The translations under genes were made by a program, and so were the position numbers. This document shows, in pieces, positions 47,697 to 58,514 of a DNA stretch of 64,000 bases (position 1 is the stretch's first letter; each line of letters starts with the position of its first letter). This DNA is from Rhodobacterales bacterium LSUCC0031. Lineage in GTDB: Bacteria > Pseudomonadota > Alphaproteobacteria > Rhodobacterales > Rhodobacteraceae. The stretch is from NCBI GenBank assembly GCA_015689735.1, contig WVSP01000001.1:1104001-1168000 (forward strand), read 5' to 3'. The notes beneath the pieces were generated by a model. That model made no database searches. It was not told where the DNA came from and was given only the letters and a program-made list of their open reading frames with translations.

Positions 47697-49211
47697 GTGA
47701 CGATCGCACAGGCCCATAAGGTCGATCCGCGCCGTGCCAGCGTGGCTATCGCACAACCCCAATCCAAGGATGCGCGCTTGCGCGCTGCGTTCGCAGCACT
47801 CGTCAGTGCGCTCTTGGTGATCACGATGCTGGTCACGATCACGCCCGTGCGCGCCCAATCCGCGCCGCCTGCGACATTCGCCGATCTGGTCGATCAGGTG
47901 GGTGACGCGGTCGTCAACATCACCACCTCGTCGCTTGTGGCTAGCCGCCAAGGCCCTGGCCCCGTGGTGCCGGAAGGTTCTCCGCTTGAGGATTTCTTCA
48001 ACGATTTCCTCGATCGCCAAGGCCCTGATCGTGGCCCCCGCCGTAGCCAAGCCCTGGGCTCGGGCTTCGTCATTTCCGAGGACGGTTATATCGTGACCAA
48101 TAACCATGTCATCGAAGGCGCCGATGAGATCACGATCGAGTTTCGCGCGGGTTTTACCCTTGAGGCGGAACTGGTCGGCACCGATCCCAACACAGATATC
48201 GCGGTCCTCAAGGTCACGGCTGATGCGCCGCTGCCCTTCGTCGATTTCGGCGACAGCACCGCGATGCGTGTTGGTGACTGGGTCATGGCCATGGGCAATC
48301 CTTTGGGGCAGGGCTTTTCCGTTTCGGTCGGGATCGTGTCGGCCGCGGGTCGCGCGCTTTCGGGCAGCTATGACGACTATATTCAGACCGACGCCGCCAT
48401 CAATCGTGGCAATTCCGGCGGCCCGCTGTTCAATATGGCAGGCGAGGTAATCGGTGTGAATACTGCGATCTTGTCCCCCACGGGCGGCTCGATCGGGATC
48501 GGCTTTGCTATGTCCTCGGCCGTGGTGACCAAGGTCGTTGATCAGTTGCGCGAATTCGGCGAGACGCGGCGCGGTTGGCTGGGTGTGCGCATCCAGGATG
48601 TCACCCCCGAATTGGCCGATGGGCTTGGCCTTGCCGAGGCGCGCGGCGCCTTGGTTACCGATGTCCCCGAGGGGCCGGCGCGCCTTGGCGGGATGGAAGT
48701 AGGAGACGTGATCTTGACCTTCGATGGCGAGGCGATCACCGATACGCGCGGCTTGGTGCGTATCGTCGGTGAACGCGCCGAAGGCCAGACCGTCCCGGTC
48801 GAGGTGGTGCGCGAAGGCAAGCCCGAGATCCTCGCGATCACGCTTGGCCGGCGCGAAACCGCTGAAGGCATGGCCGCGACAAGCCCCGATGGACAGGTCG
48901 TGCCGCCCGCACCGAAACAAGTCTTGGGCCTAACGCTGGCACCGCTCACCGATGAGCTGCGCGCCCAGCTTGGTCTTGCAGCGGGTGCGACGGGGCTGTT
49001 GATCGAGGCGGTTGATCCCGCCTCGGATGCGGCGACCAAGGGCTTGGCGGTGGGCGATGTCATCACCGAGGTGGCCCAGCAACCCGTTACCGATGTGGCA
49101 AGCTTTCAGGCAAGCGTCGAGACAGCGATCGAGAATGGCCAGAAATCGGTACTGTTGCTGATCCGGCGCGCTGGCAATCCGCGCTTTGTCGCGCTGAGCT
49201 TGTCTAACTGA
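47697..49211 (+). CDS. degP: Periplasmic Do/DegP-family serine protease
   Basis: A 504-residue HtrA protease. GTG start at 47697 with AGGAGG five bases upstream; no ATG fits before the signal sequence (LVSALLVITMLVTITPVRA, cleaved near AQS). Catalytic triad: His in VTNNHVIEG, Asp in NTDIAVLK, Ser in NRGNSGGPLF. Two PDZ domains follow (from about residues 290 and 405). It degrades misfolded envelope proteins. It belongs with hflKC in a protein-quality-control block and ends at a strong terminator. Confidence 0.95.
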   Translation: MTIAQAHKVDPRRASVAIAQPQSKDARLRAAFAALVSALLVITMLVTITPVRAQSAPPATFADLVDQVGDAVVNITTSSLVASRQGPGPVVPEGSPLEDFFNDFLDRQGPDRGPRRSQALGSGFVISEDGYIVTNNHVIEGADEITIEFRAGFTLEAELVGTDPNTDIAVLKVTADAPLPFVDFGDSTAMRVGDWVMAMGNPLGQGFSVSVGIVSAAGRALSGSYDDYIQTDAAINRGNSGGPLFNMAGEVIGVNTAILSPTGGSIGIGFAMSSAVVTKVVDQLREFGETRRGWLGVRIQDVTPELADGLGLAEARGALVTDVPEGPARLGGMEVGDVILTFDGEAITDTRGLVRIVGERAEGQTVPVEVVREGKPEILAITLGRRETAEGMAATSPDGQVVPPAPKQVLGLTLAPLTDELRAQLGLAAGATGLLIEAVDPASDAATKGLAVGDVITEVAQQPVTDVASFQASVETAIENGQKSVLLLIRRAGNPRFVALSLSN

Positions 49212-49289: not shown

Positions 49290-49850
49290 TCAGCCTGTGG
49301 TGTCGTTTGCTGCGATCGTGGGGTTCCACAGTGCCAAGCCAAGTTGTTGTGCGGCGGCCAACGACAAGATGTCGCTGTCGAGGCCTTGTGGCGCCTGATA
49401 AGCACGGATCGCTTGGCGGGTGCGGCGGTTCATCTCGCCGGTGATCGGTCCGGCGTAAAGCCCGCGCGCGGCCAGCGCACGTTGCAGCGAAGCGATGAAA
49501 TCACGCTCTCCCGCCGCGAGCGCGCACGGAACCTCGAACCATAGCTCGCGCCGCTCGGTCACGATGCGCTGGTGGGTTTCGGTCACAAAAATGGCAGGTT
49601 CCCGCACGCGCCCATCGGTGCTGATCTGTGGCGGCTGAACCATCACTTGCTCTGTCACGGTCTCGATCACCGCAGGCGTCGTTGTGCGCCCGTAACAGGC
49701 CGCCGGGTCGGCATTGGGGGGGCCTTGTCCGCGCAAGACCGCCACCGCCGCGTCACCCGCGACAAGCGGATCGGCAAAGGCATCCTGCGCGCTCGTGGGC
49801 ATGCAAGCGGCAAGGGCCAGCAGCCCCGGGCATAGGATGGTCAGGCGCAT
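49290..49850 (-). CDS. Lipoprotein with peptidoglycan-binding domain
   Basis: A 186-residue protein. MRLTILCPGLLALAAC gives a lipobox (LAAC) with Cys16. The C-terminal about 70 residues (FIASLQRALAARGLYAGPIT and MNRRTRQAIRAYQAPQGLDS) form a PG_binding_1 domain. It is expected to be anchored in the outer membrane and to contact the peptidoglycan. It is convergent with degP. A similar layout is seen in many Rhodobacterales envelope proteins; the specific role is unknown. Confidence 0.83.
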   Translation of the reverse strand: MRLTILCPGLLALAACMPTSAQDAFADPLVAGDAAVAVLRGQGPPNADPAACYGRTTTPAVIETVTEQVMVQPPQISTDGRVREPAIFVTETHQRIVTERRELWFEVPCALAAGERDFIASLQRALAARGLYAGPITGEMNRRTRQAIRAYQAPQGLDSDILSLAAAQQLGLALWNPTIAANDTTG

Positions 49851-49930: not shown

Positions 49931-50311
49931 TTAGGGCTGATCGGCGGCGCGCGCGCCTGGGTGCAGGCGCACGAGATCGTCAAGCATGGGCGAGATATCC
50001 TCGACCATCTCGGCCACCACATGGGTGACGCCCGATTGCCGCTGCATCCGTCCCGTCACCCGCAAAAGCCGCCCGGCGATCACCGCCCGGCGAAAACGCT
50101 GATAGATCTTTTGCCAGATGATCACGTTGCAGACCCCGAACTCATCCTCGAGCGTCAGGAAAATCACGCCCTTGGCCGTGCCGGGGCGCTGGCGCACCAA
50201 GACAAGCCCTGCCACCGCGACCCGCGCCCCCTCGGGCGGCAGGTGCAGCATGTGATGGGGCAGGCAGACGGGAGGCCGTGGCCATGCAGGGGGGGTGATC
50301 TGTGGCTCCAT
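49931..50311 (-). CDS. Stand-alone DnaE2 C-terminal-like OB-fold protein, putatively SOS-controlled
   Basis: A 126-residue frame. [36 protein letters not shown] and [20 protein letters not shown] match the C-terminal OB-fold segment of error-prone polymerase DnaE2 (normally over 1000 residues). No PHP, polymerase or helix-hairpin-helix parts are encoded nearby. The frame is intact, begins with ATG at 50311 and sits directly behind a LexA-type box (50314-50328) and a promoter-like TTGCGG-16-TATCTT. It is either a decayed remnant kept in frame or, more interestingly, a small ssDNA-binding-type SOS protein. Upstream in-frame codons cross the promoter and are not included. Confidence 0.7.
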
Positions 50312-50313
50312 GA

Positions 50314-50328
50314 GAACAAAGATAGAAC
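50314..50328 (-). promoter_or_regulatory. LexA (SOS) box overlapping a probable leaderless promoter
   Basis: On the minus strand GTTC-TATCTTT-GTTC, an exact match to the alphaproteobacterial LexA consensus GTTC-N7-GTTC. The candidate -10 (TATCTT, 50319-50324) lies inside the box and a -35-like TTGCGG (50341-50346) is 16 bp upstream, which would place the transcription start at or next to the ATG of the OB-fold gene. Confidence 0.75.
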
Positions 50329-50422
50329 AATTCACCGTATCCGCAAGCCTGCCAATTCGGGCTGGAAAGCGGTCAAAGGGCATACTACCTAGGGCGCGAT
50401 CAGGTCACGCGCGCGGCCTTAG

Positions 50423-50764
<342 letters not shown>

Positions 50765-55603: not shown

Positions 55604-58351
55604 TCAGCCTTTCTTGGTCGCGGTCTTTGCCTTTGCCTTTGCCTTTGCCTTGGGCTTGGCGACGGCTGTCTTGGGCTTGGCCGGCGTTTTGGGTTTGGCG
55701 GTCTTAGCCTTGACTGCTTTTGAGCCTTTACCACCCTTGGCGGCCTTTTCAGCGATCAGCGCCACGGCCGCCGCGAGCGTCAGCGCCTCGGGGGCCACAT
55801 CCTTGGGCAAGGTGGCGTTGATCTTGTCCCATTTCACATAAGGGCCGTAGCGCCCCGCCATGACCGCGACCTGTCCGCCATGTTCGGGATGTTCGCCCAA
55901 TTCCTTGAGCGGGGCCGCCGCCGACGCACCACGCCCGCCGCGACCGGCGGCTTTGGCGGCCAAAAGCTCGACCGCGCGGTTCATGCCGATGGTCCAAACC
56001 TCGTCCACCTCGGGCAAGTTGGCGTATATCGGCTTGGCGGCATCCTTGGCCTTGTATGCGACATAGGGGCCGTAGCGGCCGATGGCGGTCTCGACGGGCT
56101 GGCCATCCTCGGGATGGGCGCCCACGACACGCGGCAGTGTCAAGAGTTTCAGCGCCCGCTCGAGATCCATCTCGCCTGCGCCCCAGCCCTTGGGCAGCGA
56201 GGCGCGCTTAGGCTTGGGATCATCTTCGGTCGCCTCGCCGAGCTGTACATAGGGGCCGAAGCGCCCGTCGCGCAGCGTTACGGGCAACGAGGTATCGGGA
56301 TCGACCCCCAGCATCTTGCCATCGGCACTGAGCGCTGTGCCATCCTCGGCCTCGGGGTTGGGCGGGCCAAAGGGGCGGGTGTAGCGGCATTCGGGATAGT
56401 TCGAACAGCCGATGAACGCCCCGCCCGAGCGCGCGGTGCGCATCGACAGCCGTCCCGCACCGCAAGCGGGGCAAGCGCGCGGGTCGGCGCCATCGGTGCG
56501 CGCGGGGAACAGGTGCGGCTCCAACACCTCGTTGATCTTTTCCAGCACATCGGTGATGCGCAGTTCCGCCGTCTCGGCCAGCGAGGCCGAGAAATCGCGC
56601 CAGAACGCCTCGAGAACCGCCTTGTAAGCGCGCGCGCCTGCACTCACCTCGTCGAGTTGGTTTTCCAGATCGGCGGTAAAGTCGAACTCGACATATTTGC
56701 CGAAATAATTGACCAGGAACGCGGTCACCAACCGCCCCTTATCCTCGGGGATCAGGCGGTTTTTCTCTTTGCGCACATAGCCGCGCGCCACGATCGTGTC
56801 GAGGATCGAGGCATAGGTCGAGGGCCGCCCGATGCCGAGCTCCTCCATCCGCTTGACCAGCGTCGCCTCGGTGTAGCGCGGCGGGGGTTGGGTGAAATGC
56901 TGCTGGCCCAAGACCGCACCATCGCCCGACAATAGCGCCGCCGCATCCTCGGCCATCGCGCCCTTGGGGGCGGCCTTGCCGGTCAGCTTGGCCCAATCAT
57001 CGGCCAATGCGGTGGCGGCGGGTTTGAGCGCATCGCCCCGCGCCATTTGCGGCAGGCGGCGGCCATCTTCGTCGGCGTCATCGTCGCGTCCTTCCTCGTA
57101 CACCTTGAGGAAGCCGTCGAAGAGCACGACCTGACCGGTGGCGCGCAATTCGACCTGACCATCGGCGCTGGCGATGGTGACGGTGGTGCGTTCCATCCGT
57201 GCCGCTTCCATCTGGCTCGCGATGGTGCGCTTCCAGATCAATTCGTAAAGCTTGCGCTGGTCATCCTCGCTCAGGCGCAAATCGCCTGGTGCCTTGGCCA
57301 TATCGGTGGGGCGGATGCATTCATGCGCTTCTTGCGCGTTCTTGGCCTTGTTCTTGTACATGCGCGGGTCTGCGGGGACGTATTCGGCCCCGTAGCGCGC
57401 CTTGATCGCGTCGCGCGCCGCATGGACCGCCTCGGGGGCCATGTCGATGCCGTCGGTTCGCATATAGGTGATATGGCCCGCCTCGTAGAGGCGCTGGGCG
57501 GCGCTCATCGTCTGGCGCGCGCCCATGCCGTATTTGCGGCTCGCTTCTTGTTGCAGGGTCGAGGTCATGAAGGGTGGGGCGGGGTTGCGGTTGGCGGGCT
57601 TGGCCTCGACGTCGGTGACCGACAGCGCGCGCGACGAGACGGCCTGCACCGCAAGGCTTGCCTGCGCGGCGGTGGCCAGATCGAATTTATCGAGCTTGCG
57701 CCCGCGCAGATGGGTCAGCCGCGCCTCGAAGTGCTGGCCGCGCGGCGTTTCGAAGATGCCGCGCACCGACCAGTATTCCTGACCGCGAAAGGCCTCGATC
57801 TCCATCTCGCGGTCGGTGATGATGCGCAGCGCCACCGATTGCACGCGCCCTGCCGACTTTGCGCCGGGCAGCTTGCGCCATAAGACAGGCGAGAGGTTGA
57901 ACCCCACGAGATAGTCAAGCGCGCGGCGCGCCAGATAGGCCTCGACCAGCTCCATATCGACTTGCCGTGGGTTCTTCATTGCCTCGGTCACGGCGGATTT
58001 GGTGATCGCGTTGAAGACCACGCGGCTGACGGGGGTTCCGGGCTTGATCGCCTTGCGGCTGGTCAGCGCCTCTTGCAGATGCCACGAAATCGCCTCGCCC
58101 TCGCGGTCTGGGTCGGTGGCGAGGATCAGGACTGGGTCATCTTTCAGCGCATCGGCGATGGCTTTGACATGTTTGCGCGAGTCGGTGGCGATCTCCCACT
58201 CCATCGAAAAGCCCTGTTCGGGGTCGACCGAGCCATCCTTGGAAGGCAGGTCACGCACATGCCCGTAAGAGGCCAACACGGTGTAATCGCTGCCAAGATA
58301 GCTGTTGATGGTCTTGGCCTTGGCGGGCGATTCGACGACGACGACGGGCAT
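55604..58351 (-). CDS. topA: DNA topoisomerase I
   Basis: A 915-residue type IA topoisomerase. The Toprim domain starts VVVVESPAKAKTINSYLGSD with DPDREGEAISWHL; the active-site tyrosine is in TYMRTDGIDM near residue 300. One Cys4 zinc element (CPACGAGRLSMRTA, GCSNYPEC) and several Topo_C repeats (GRFGPYVQLG, GRYGPYVAYK, GRYGPYVKWD) follow. The C-terminus is a Lys/Ala-rich tail (AKPKAKAKAKAKTATKKG) expected to bind DNA. The ATG at 58351 is the homologous start. Confidence 0.97.
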   Translation of the reverse strand: MPVVVVESPAKAKTINSYLGSDYTVLASYGHVRDLPSKDGSVDPEQGFSMEWEIATDSRKHVKAIADALKDDPVLILATDPDREGEAISWHLQEALTSRKAIKPGTPVSRVVFNAITKSAVTEAMKNPRQVDMELVEAYLARRALDYLVGFNLSPVLWRKLPGAKSAGRVQSVALRIITDREMEIEAFRGQEYWSVRGIFETPRGQHFEARLTHLRGRKLDKFDLATAAQASLAVQAVSSRALSVTDVEAKPANRNPAPPFMTSTLQQEASRKYGMGARQTMSAAQRLYEAGHITYMRTDGIDMAPEAVHAARDAIKARYGAEYVPADPRMYKNKAKNAQEAHECIRPTDMAKAPGDLRLSEDDQRKLYELIWKRTIASQMEAARMERTTVTIASADGQVELRATGQVVLFDGFLKVYEEGRDDDADEDGRRLPQMARGDALKPAATALADDWAKLTGKAAPKGAMAEDAAALLSGDGAVLGQQHFTQPPPRYTEATLVKRMEELGIGRPSTYASILDTIVARGYVRKEKNRLIPEDKGRLVTAFLVNYFGKYVEFDFTADLENQLDEVSAGARAYKAVLEAFWRDFSASLAETAELRITDVLEKINEVLEPHLFPARTDGADPRACPACGAGRLSMRTARSGGAFIGCSNYPECRYTRPFGPPNPEAEDGTALSADGKMLGVDPDTSLPVTLRDGRFGPYVQLGEATEDDPKPKRASLPKGWGAGEMDLERALKLLTLPRVVGAHPEDGQPVETAIGRYGPYVAYKAKDAAKPIYANLPEVDEVWTIGMNRAVELLAAKAAGRGGRGASAAAPLKELGEHPEHGGQVAVMAGRYGPYVKWDKINATLPKDVAPEALTLAAAVALIAEKAAKGGKGSKAVKAKTAKPKTPAKPKTAVAKPKAKAKAKAKTATKKG

Positions 58352-58514
58352 GCACTGATTTCCTGTTCCGGCCGGTAAGCGAGAAATGGCCTTGTGGCGG
58401 CGGACCATGTGGGCGTTGTGGTCGGCTTGTCAATGCGTCAGGAGGCGGTGAAAAGCCCCTCATTTTCAATGAGCGATTTTTTTGGCAAGGCGTGGCAGCC
58501 ATAGTGATGGGCGG

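Follow-up and report, generated by a model that had tools for sequence, protein, structure and literature searches.

The locus

The window is a stretch of 64,000 nucleotides from Rhodobacterales bacterium LSUCC0031, a member of the Rhodobacteraceae. It carries a small gene for a stand-alone OB-fold protein of 126 amino acids, read from an intact, open frame and headed by a LexA-type operator and promoter elements (table 1). A divergent 2Fe-2S ferredoxin gene and genes for a peptidoglycan-binding-domain protein and an HtrA/DegP-type protease are its neighbours.

Table 1. Features of the OB gene, its surroundings and the related genes elsewhere in the same genome. Positions without a prefix are those of the window.
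Feature	Position	Strand	Basis or remark
OB-fold gene standing alone, 126 aa; probable C-terminal domain detached from DnaE2	49931..50311	minus	family matches and predicted structure
LexA-type operator GTTCTATCTTTGTTC, 2 bp before ATG, conserved in relatives	50314..50328	minus	exact GTTC-N7-GTTC match
-10 element TATCTT inside operator, 16-bp spacer to -35	50319..50324	minus	aligned upstream regions; start site inferred
-35 element TTGCGG, its conserved TTG a constant distance away from the box	50341..50346	minus	aligned upstream regions
2Fe-2S ferredoxin gene, divergent neighbour, marks conserved OB site	50441..50764	plus	context only
Peptidoglycan-binding-domain protein, downstream neighbour	49290..49850	minus	context only
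HtrA/DegP-type protease gene with trypsin-like and PDZ domains, often adjacent	47697..49211	plus	context only
dnaE2 box, window's genome	L003:9045-9059		one mismatch
ImuA-like gene	G000:C1:1175711-1176193	plus	exact LexA-type box 1175614-1175628
ImuB-like gene	G000:C1:260244-260648	minus	exact LexA-type box 260752-260766

The protein aligns to positions 948-1039 of the 1047 in the NCBIfam family PRK05672 (E 3.7e-31, 108 bits; the family's cut-off of 939 bits is set for the whole polymerase). It is also recognized as a DnaE-type OB domain by Pfam PF01336 (E 1.7e-9, 37.9 bits, cut-off 27). An earlier note on this DNA had derived the gene from DnaE2, and these matches to the C-terminal part of the polymerase bear it out. 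AlphaFold predicts an OB fold for the protein alone, with a mean pLDDT of 89, and residues 11-20, which make up most of a WPRPP region, reach 92. The model superposes on residues 1005-1099 of the Mycobacterium tuberculosis DNA polymerase 7pu7 (Z 11.3, rmsd 2.1 over 91 residues). Many other OB proteins are structural matches; aspartyl- and asparaginyl-tRNA synthetases stand at the top, and the polymerases include 7pu7 and PolC (3f2b/3f2c). Sharing an OB fold is not in itself proof of function. The OB domain of replicative DnaE and PolC has the same fold, but there it lies within the polymerase chain. A profile search of solved structures with the OB sequence gave no match at E 0.01, and the best SSB family model, PRK07275, gave E 0.21 and 11.7 bits against a cut-off of 254.

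Purifying selection maintains the gene. The median dN/dS is 0.15 over 91 pairs from 14 genomes, 13 of the window's genus and the neighbouring G023, and the frame is unbroken in every one. The earlier note had held that the gene is no decayed remnant, had looked to homologues of about 120 residues with an upstream LexA box, and had named missing homologues and frames broken in relatives as signs to the contrary. Such homologues exist, they carry the same conserved operator, and the close relatives keep the frame.

Operator and promoter

Exact GTTC-N7-GTTC boxes number 47 in the 2.98 Mb of the window's genome, against 306 for the reversed pattern; the box at the OB gene appears to be more than chance. 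Conservation was assessed over 75 OB loci: that of the window and 74 more, with 13 of the set from the window's genus and the rest from other genera. (Loci L121-L149 were left out of this count, as they partly repeat the genomes of other loci.) An exact box in the same orientation is found at 68 of the 75. An ATG follows it by 1-5 bp at 61 loci and by exactly 2 bp at 42. Among the remaining seven, four have no box (L109, L180, L199 at a contig edge, and L295), two have one mismatch and one has the reverse orientation.

The promoter elements are conserved with the box. In the 68 aligned upstream regions, the T, T and G of the -35 element are kept in 63, 50 and 60 rows, and the letters of the -10 element (TATnTT), within the box and 16 bp from the TTG, in 49-65. 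Flanking positions mostly carry less than 0.4 bits. The expected transcription start is an A in 52 of the 68, and at the window's gene the 5' end is inferred to fall at the ATG or one base before it. Because the box occupies the ribosome-binding region, no Shine-Dalgarno sequence fits the close-set loci. The conserved TTG and TATnTT, with an ATG 1-5 bp behind the box, support a leaderless transcript; the geometry places the 5' end at the ATG, and the OB mRNA is probably leaderless. In these respects the earlier note read the region well: the exact box ending 2 bp before the ATG and the TTGCGG-16-TATCTT promoter with its -10 inside the box are as it described, the box, the TTG and a TATnTT recur in relatives, and its suggestion of a leaderless gene agrees with the promoter geometry. 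The idea that the OB promoter is a copy of the dnaE2 promoter finds no support; box orientation and geometry differ.

Two side observations concern boxes and starts. At locus L097 (G305) the OB gene has an exact box and no ATG, GTG or TTG nearby; the frame opens ATC GAA CCG after a GAGGTG stretch, so that either translation starts at an uncommon codon or the sequence contains an error. Within the window, two more exact GTTC-N7-GTTC matches (56403-56417 and 56603-56617) lie inside a 934-aa frame (55604..58408) whose product we take, from its sequence, to be topoisomerase I-like. These two are probably chance.

The rest of DnaE2

Searched with the C-family catalytic domain, the window's genome yields two genes, for the replicative DnaE and for a single DnaE2. 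The body of this DnaE2 (L003:9035..6087, 982 aa) ends in ...RLTLRSHPVALIRHRLSPGIDGRLLGGHVPSKGHESALQGA, just before the OB domain would begin. Its residues 3-958 align to PRK05672 positions 4-938 with 1224.5 bits, over the cut-off of 939, and it keeps the PDIDVDF and VDIL motifs of a DnaE2-type polymerase with catalytic motifs. No OB domain is joined to its C terminus. The OB gene is the sole OB match in the genome and lies 0.92 Mb away. Since the body covers positions 4-938 and the OB protein 948-1039, with no other OB match, the polymerase is encoded in two pieces. Together they match PRK05672 almost end to end, like the DnaE2 (ImuC) of the ImuA-ImuB-DnaE2 mutasome. A second full DnaE2 that would duplicate this OB domain was considered and rejected, as one DnaE2 and one OB match were found. 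The earlier note had suggested a new small damage-response factor. A DnaE2-derived gene with a LexA-type box is indeed present, but the picture of an additional factor alongside an ordinary DnaE2 is not supported: the only DnaE2 in the genome is without exactly this domain, and the simplest reading is one polymerase in two pieces.

The same division is seen in many relatives. No in-frame OB sequence follows any of 93 separate bodies (alignment score at most 29), whereas 18 of 18 fused genes score at least 281. PDIDVDF is kept in 92 of the 93. The separate dnaE2 genes have a control region of their own: a proximal GAAC-type box, GAACAAAACGTGAA(T/C), abuts a TATACT -10 element in 82 of 92 split genomes. 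In 63 of the 82 this box ends in T, so that a single letter differs from the consensus in a conserved way. The 82 of 92 is the stricter count; body L090, whose N-terminal part is in another frame, and one of the 18 fused genes were left out. A looser count of any box with at most one mismatch within 160 bases, some of them expected by chance, finds one at 89 of 92 split bodies and at 6 of 17 fused genes.

Distribution and co-inheritance

An OB match is present in 358 of 395 sampled genomes of the family, and a stand-alone OB gene, judged from frame lengths, in 169 of the 395 sampled species. The fused G333 and G292 were removed from the stand-alone counts, and G236, G361, G207 and G416, which are fragments or unclear, were left out. 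In the named genome set (29 loci), the close relatives are Roseicyclus and Roseibacterium; others belong to Boseongicola, Tropicimonas, Pseudooceanicola and elsewhere. A split DnaE2 thus appears, from these sequences, to be common to a large, mostly marine bacterial group within the family. Plasmid or phage carriage of the stand-alone gene was rejected on the basis of one weak phage record and of the 25 listed among 801 plasmid records with a match: in 21 the match falls within a gene annotated as error-prone DNA polymerase, two records are unannotated and two have no feature at the match.

The OB gene and the DnaE2 body are inherited together. A DnaE2-type match was found in 162 of 163 stand-alone-OB genomes searched (batches of 27, 74 and 62), in pieces at contig ends in G189, G394 and G105; 18 of the 169 stand-alone genomes fell outside the body search, although the locus itself was inspected in G222. 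In G255 a fused DnaE2 is accompanied by no more than a 289-aa piece of a split-type body, and G047 has a split pair together with a separate fused DnaE2. Conversely, where no OB match was found, DnaE2 is mostly missing as well: 21 such genomes were searched in batches of 3 and 18 (20 of the 37 sampled, and G020), and 17 have none. The two counts together give a Fisher p of 2.5e-19 for co-occurrence with kinship ignored. Eighteen genomes were found to have no DnaE2; 17 of them have no OB gene, the exception being G095. The two halves also diverge in step. After removal of the replicative DnaE distance, OB and body distances are correlated over 32 genomes (partial r 0.71, permutation p 0.0005; r 0.63 without four fast lineages), the DnaE loci of G162, G003 and G008 and the G169 stub having been left out. 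Shared history of all mutasome genes may be a partial cause of this correlation. A very divergent split pair is seen in G045 (L290, L291, L415), a small genome that is 74% complete; its OB is 40% identical and keeps the exact box and the ferredoxin neighbour.

Genomic site

The OB gene has a conserved position. The same divergent ferredoxin gene adjoins it at 23 of 24 loci, and the other side is usually occupied by the peptidoglycan-binding gene or htrA. The exception is G222. There the body and OB gene share a strand and are separated by about 0.95 kb, in which an arginine-deiminase-like gene (PF02274) lies. The OB of G222 retains the HPRDQAKRLFPSRDFH tail, together with an exact box of its own. 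Four DnaE2-less genomes (G097, G015, G231, G143) have no OB at the ferredoxin site, and an intact OB is likewise absent from that site in six genomes with fused DnaE2 from the other tree group (G381, G014, G096, G021, G208, G028). In one of these, G014, a decayed OB remnant of 51 residues with no box (L404, about 2139-2291) lies between the ferredoxin and peptidoglycan-binding genes, and both DnaE2 genes are fused ones. This remnant would argue for decay of the OB gene along with a split polymerase. The sites of G222, G333, G292, G125, G029 and G098 are not comparable because the neighbours differ.

Origin of the split

G333 has a fused gene whose linker, ...LTPPGALTLDGRAGAPWPRPPACLTAAQL..., connects the sequence at the end of split bodies (LTP) with that at the start of split OB proteins (WPRPP). 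Timinskas and co-workers (2013, PMC3919608) describe an SRDF[H/R] tail of DnaE2. A C-terminal SRDF motif is present in 17 of 18 fused genes, as SRDFH in 16 and SRDFN in G279; G292 has AREF. In the main clade neither half carries the motif, apart from degenerate tails on seven of the 93 bodies. The split enzyme therefore differs from the old one by more than its division into two. These seven tails (for example in G340, G185, G209 and G108) have HPR(N/D/S) near the end, some followed by RHF, resembling a degenerate SRDFH. They look as if the OB domain had been cut out and the tail kept.

In a tree of 102 bodies without G222, from which nine near-duplicate rows of the genus were dropped, a single branch with support 89 parts split from fused genes. 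When outgroups and G222 are included, with 14 rows dropped, the main split clade has support 100/100, and the AU test rejects a grouping of all split rows in one clade (p 0.00096). This tree thus speaks against a single fission behind all split genomes, and fission probably occurred at least twice, in the main clade and in G222. An alternative history is one early fission with later re-fusions. G125, whose OB has no box and a broken tail, takes no firm place in the tree.

Mutasome genes elsewhere in the genome

The other genes of an ImuA-ImuB-DnaE2 mutasome have candidate counterparts in the window's genome, both with LexA-type boxes upstream. The ImuA-like protein matches fused-type ImuA at E 7.5e-19 and scores 40.5 bits with the ImuA model, under its curated cut-off of 150. 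The ImuB-like protein is the product of a second Y-family gene; it is divergent, scoring over the cut-off for PF00817 (68.5 bits) and matching no ImuB-specific model. An ImuA-like gene is found in 30 of 30 split genomes searched, in G095 and G125, and in none of four DnaE2-less genomes. Loss of ImuA or ImuB along with fission is not supported, as ImuA-like and second Y-family genes are found. The OB gene, dnaE2 and the ImuA-like and ImuB-like genes stand at separate places, so that the mutasome-type genes are four separate genes with a LexA-type box near each; that of dnaE2 has one mismatch. The usual imuA-imuB-dnaE2 operon is thus dispersed in this genome. The differences from the known mutasome are the lack of this operon, the splitting of the polymerase over two distant loci and the loss of SRDF.

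Other divided or reduced mutasome components have been reported. Split ImuB (iPolY and ImuB-C) in DnaE2X systems (PMC12926913) is alike in that a mutasome component is in two genes; those systems divide ImuB, whereas here the polymerase itself gives its nucleic-acid-binding domain to a second gene. The words OB domain and OB-fold are absent from the main text of that 2026 survey, and the available text of a mycobacterial mutasome study (PMC10421592) leaves the OB domain unmentioned. Several DnaE2 sequences without an OB domain are described in PMC3919608; the available text of that paper links them to no separate OB gene, SOS promoter or co-inheritance. A Dinoroseobacter study lists predicted LexA sites, its main text being without dnaE or imuB (PMC6473078), and an imuA-imuB-dnaE2-type cassette is reported on a 126-kb plasmid of the same species (PMC9426580). 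Among the titles and abstracts found in open-licence papers on DnaE2, on LexA in Rhodobacteraceae, Roseobacter and Dinoroseobacter, and on leaderless SOS genes, none describes a separate OB gene.

Interpretation

The OB gene probably encodes the OB-fold domain of error-prone DnaE2 as a separate protein, a trans-acting subunit born by fission, in an ImuA/ImuB/DnaE2-type mutasome. From sequence, we put the probability of this reading at roughly 0.78. The proposed mechanism is as follows. DNA damage would remove LexA from the promoters of the OB, dnaE2, ImuA-like and ImuB-like genes. The OB protein, made from a leaderless mRNA, would then bind the DnaE2 body in trans, docking perhaps via the conserved WPRPP-containing N-terminal segment, which corresponds to the old linker. 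There, as part of a mutasome that includes ImuA and ImuB, it would provide a grip on the template or on single-stranded DNA while lesions are bypassed. In published AlphaFold models (PMC12926913) most contacts between DnaE2 and ImuB fall in the PHP and HhH regions. These regions would stay on the separate body, so the split need not break the contacts. A wider reading is offered tentatively. It sees a C-family polymerase with a separately regulated, exchangeable nucleic-acid-binding subunit. If fission occurred at least twice, separate dosing of the OB protein may itself have been selected. The SOS polymerase might then switch between OB-less and OB-bound states in lesion bypass, or the OB protein might also serve ImuB or another polymerase.

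Functional independence of the OB protein is the strongest rival explanation, and we consider it unlikely. The protein would be an SOS-induced factor that binds single-stranded DNA or modulates RecA or ImuB, and the truncated DnaE2 would work without an OB domain, as some C-family polymerases are described as naturally lacking one (PMC3919608). Exceptions to co-inheritance speak for such independence. In G095, a genome rated complete, the usual site holds an OB gene that is intact and has a box (G095:C4:2083570-2083938; L331, L292). An ImuA-like gene is also present there, and the search found no DnaE2 body. Four genomes (G088, G108, G192, G209) have a DnaE2 body and no OB match. The assemblies of G088, G192 and G209 do not include the usual ferredoxin site, the search giving either no match or just a paralogue at 46%. 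The contig of G108 ends 222 bases from the ferredoxin gene, so that the usual site is partly visible, and neither box nor OB start lies within those bases; G108 may be a real exception. Against independence stand the near-perfect co-occurrence of OB and DnaE2, the absence of the OB gene from 17 of 18 DnaE2-less genomes, the correlated divergence, and the fact that none of the six fused-DnaE2 genomes keeps an intact OB at the ferredoxin site.

Two further explanations carry very little weight. A decaying DnaE2 fragment, left by rearrangement and open by chance, is highly improbable: truly decayed or promoterless OB fragments do occur elsewhere (G014, G361 C40, G207 C29), but a chance frame is contradicted by intact relatives (14 of 14) at a dN/dS of 0.15, by stand-alone genes in 169 of 395 species, by the conserved operator and promoter and by the fixed genomic site. 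An assembly error or mis-called start parting a truly fused dnaE2 is less credible still, even with the genome in seven contigs and a longer in-frame ATG at 50383, because single-contig genomes (G006, G089, G286, G316, G338) are split too, with the halves far apart and the site conserved, because the longer start would run through operator and promoter, and because in some relatives the frame extends upstream by only a few codons beyond the short start.

Implications

A polymerase subunit separated by fission would matter for several reasons. The OB protein would be a fourth protein in a mutasome that is described as three. The mutasome genes are dispersed singly, each with a LexA-type box, and the OB gene has a conserved, start-fused and probably leaderless LexA promoter. 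The role of the OB domain in an error-prone C-family polymerase is hard to test while the domain lies within the chain. Its natural detachment, which has persisted in a large clade of this marine family and comes with an SOS-type promoter of its own, would make that role testable by clean deletion and by add-back in vitro.
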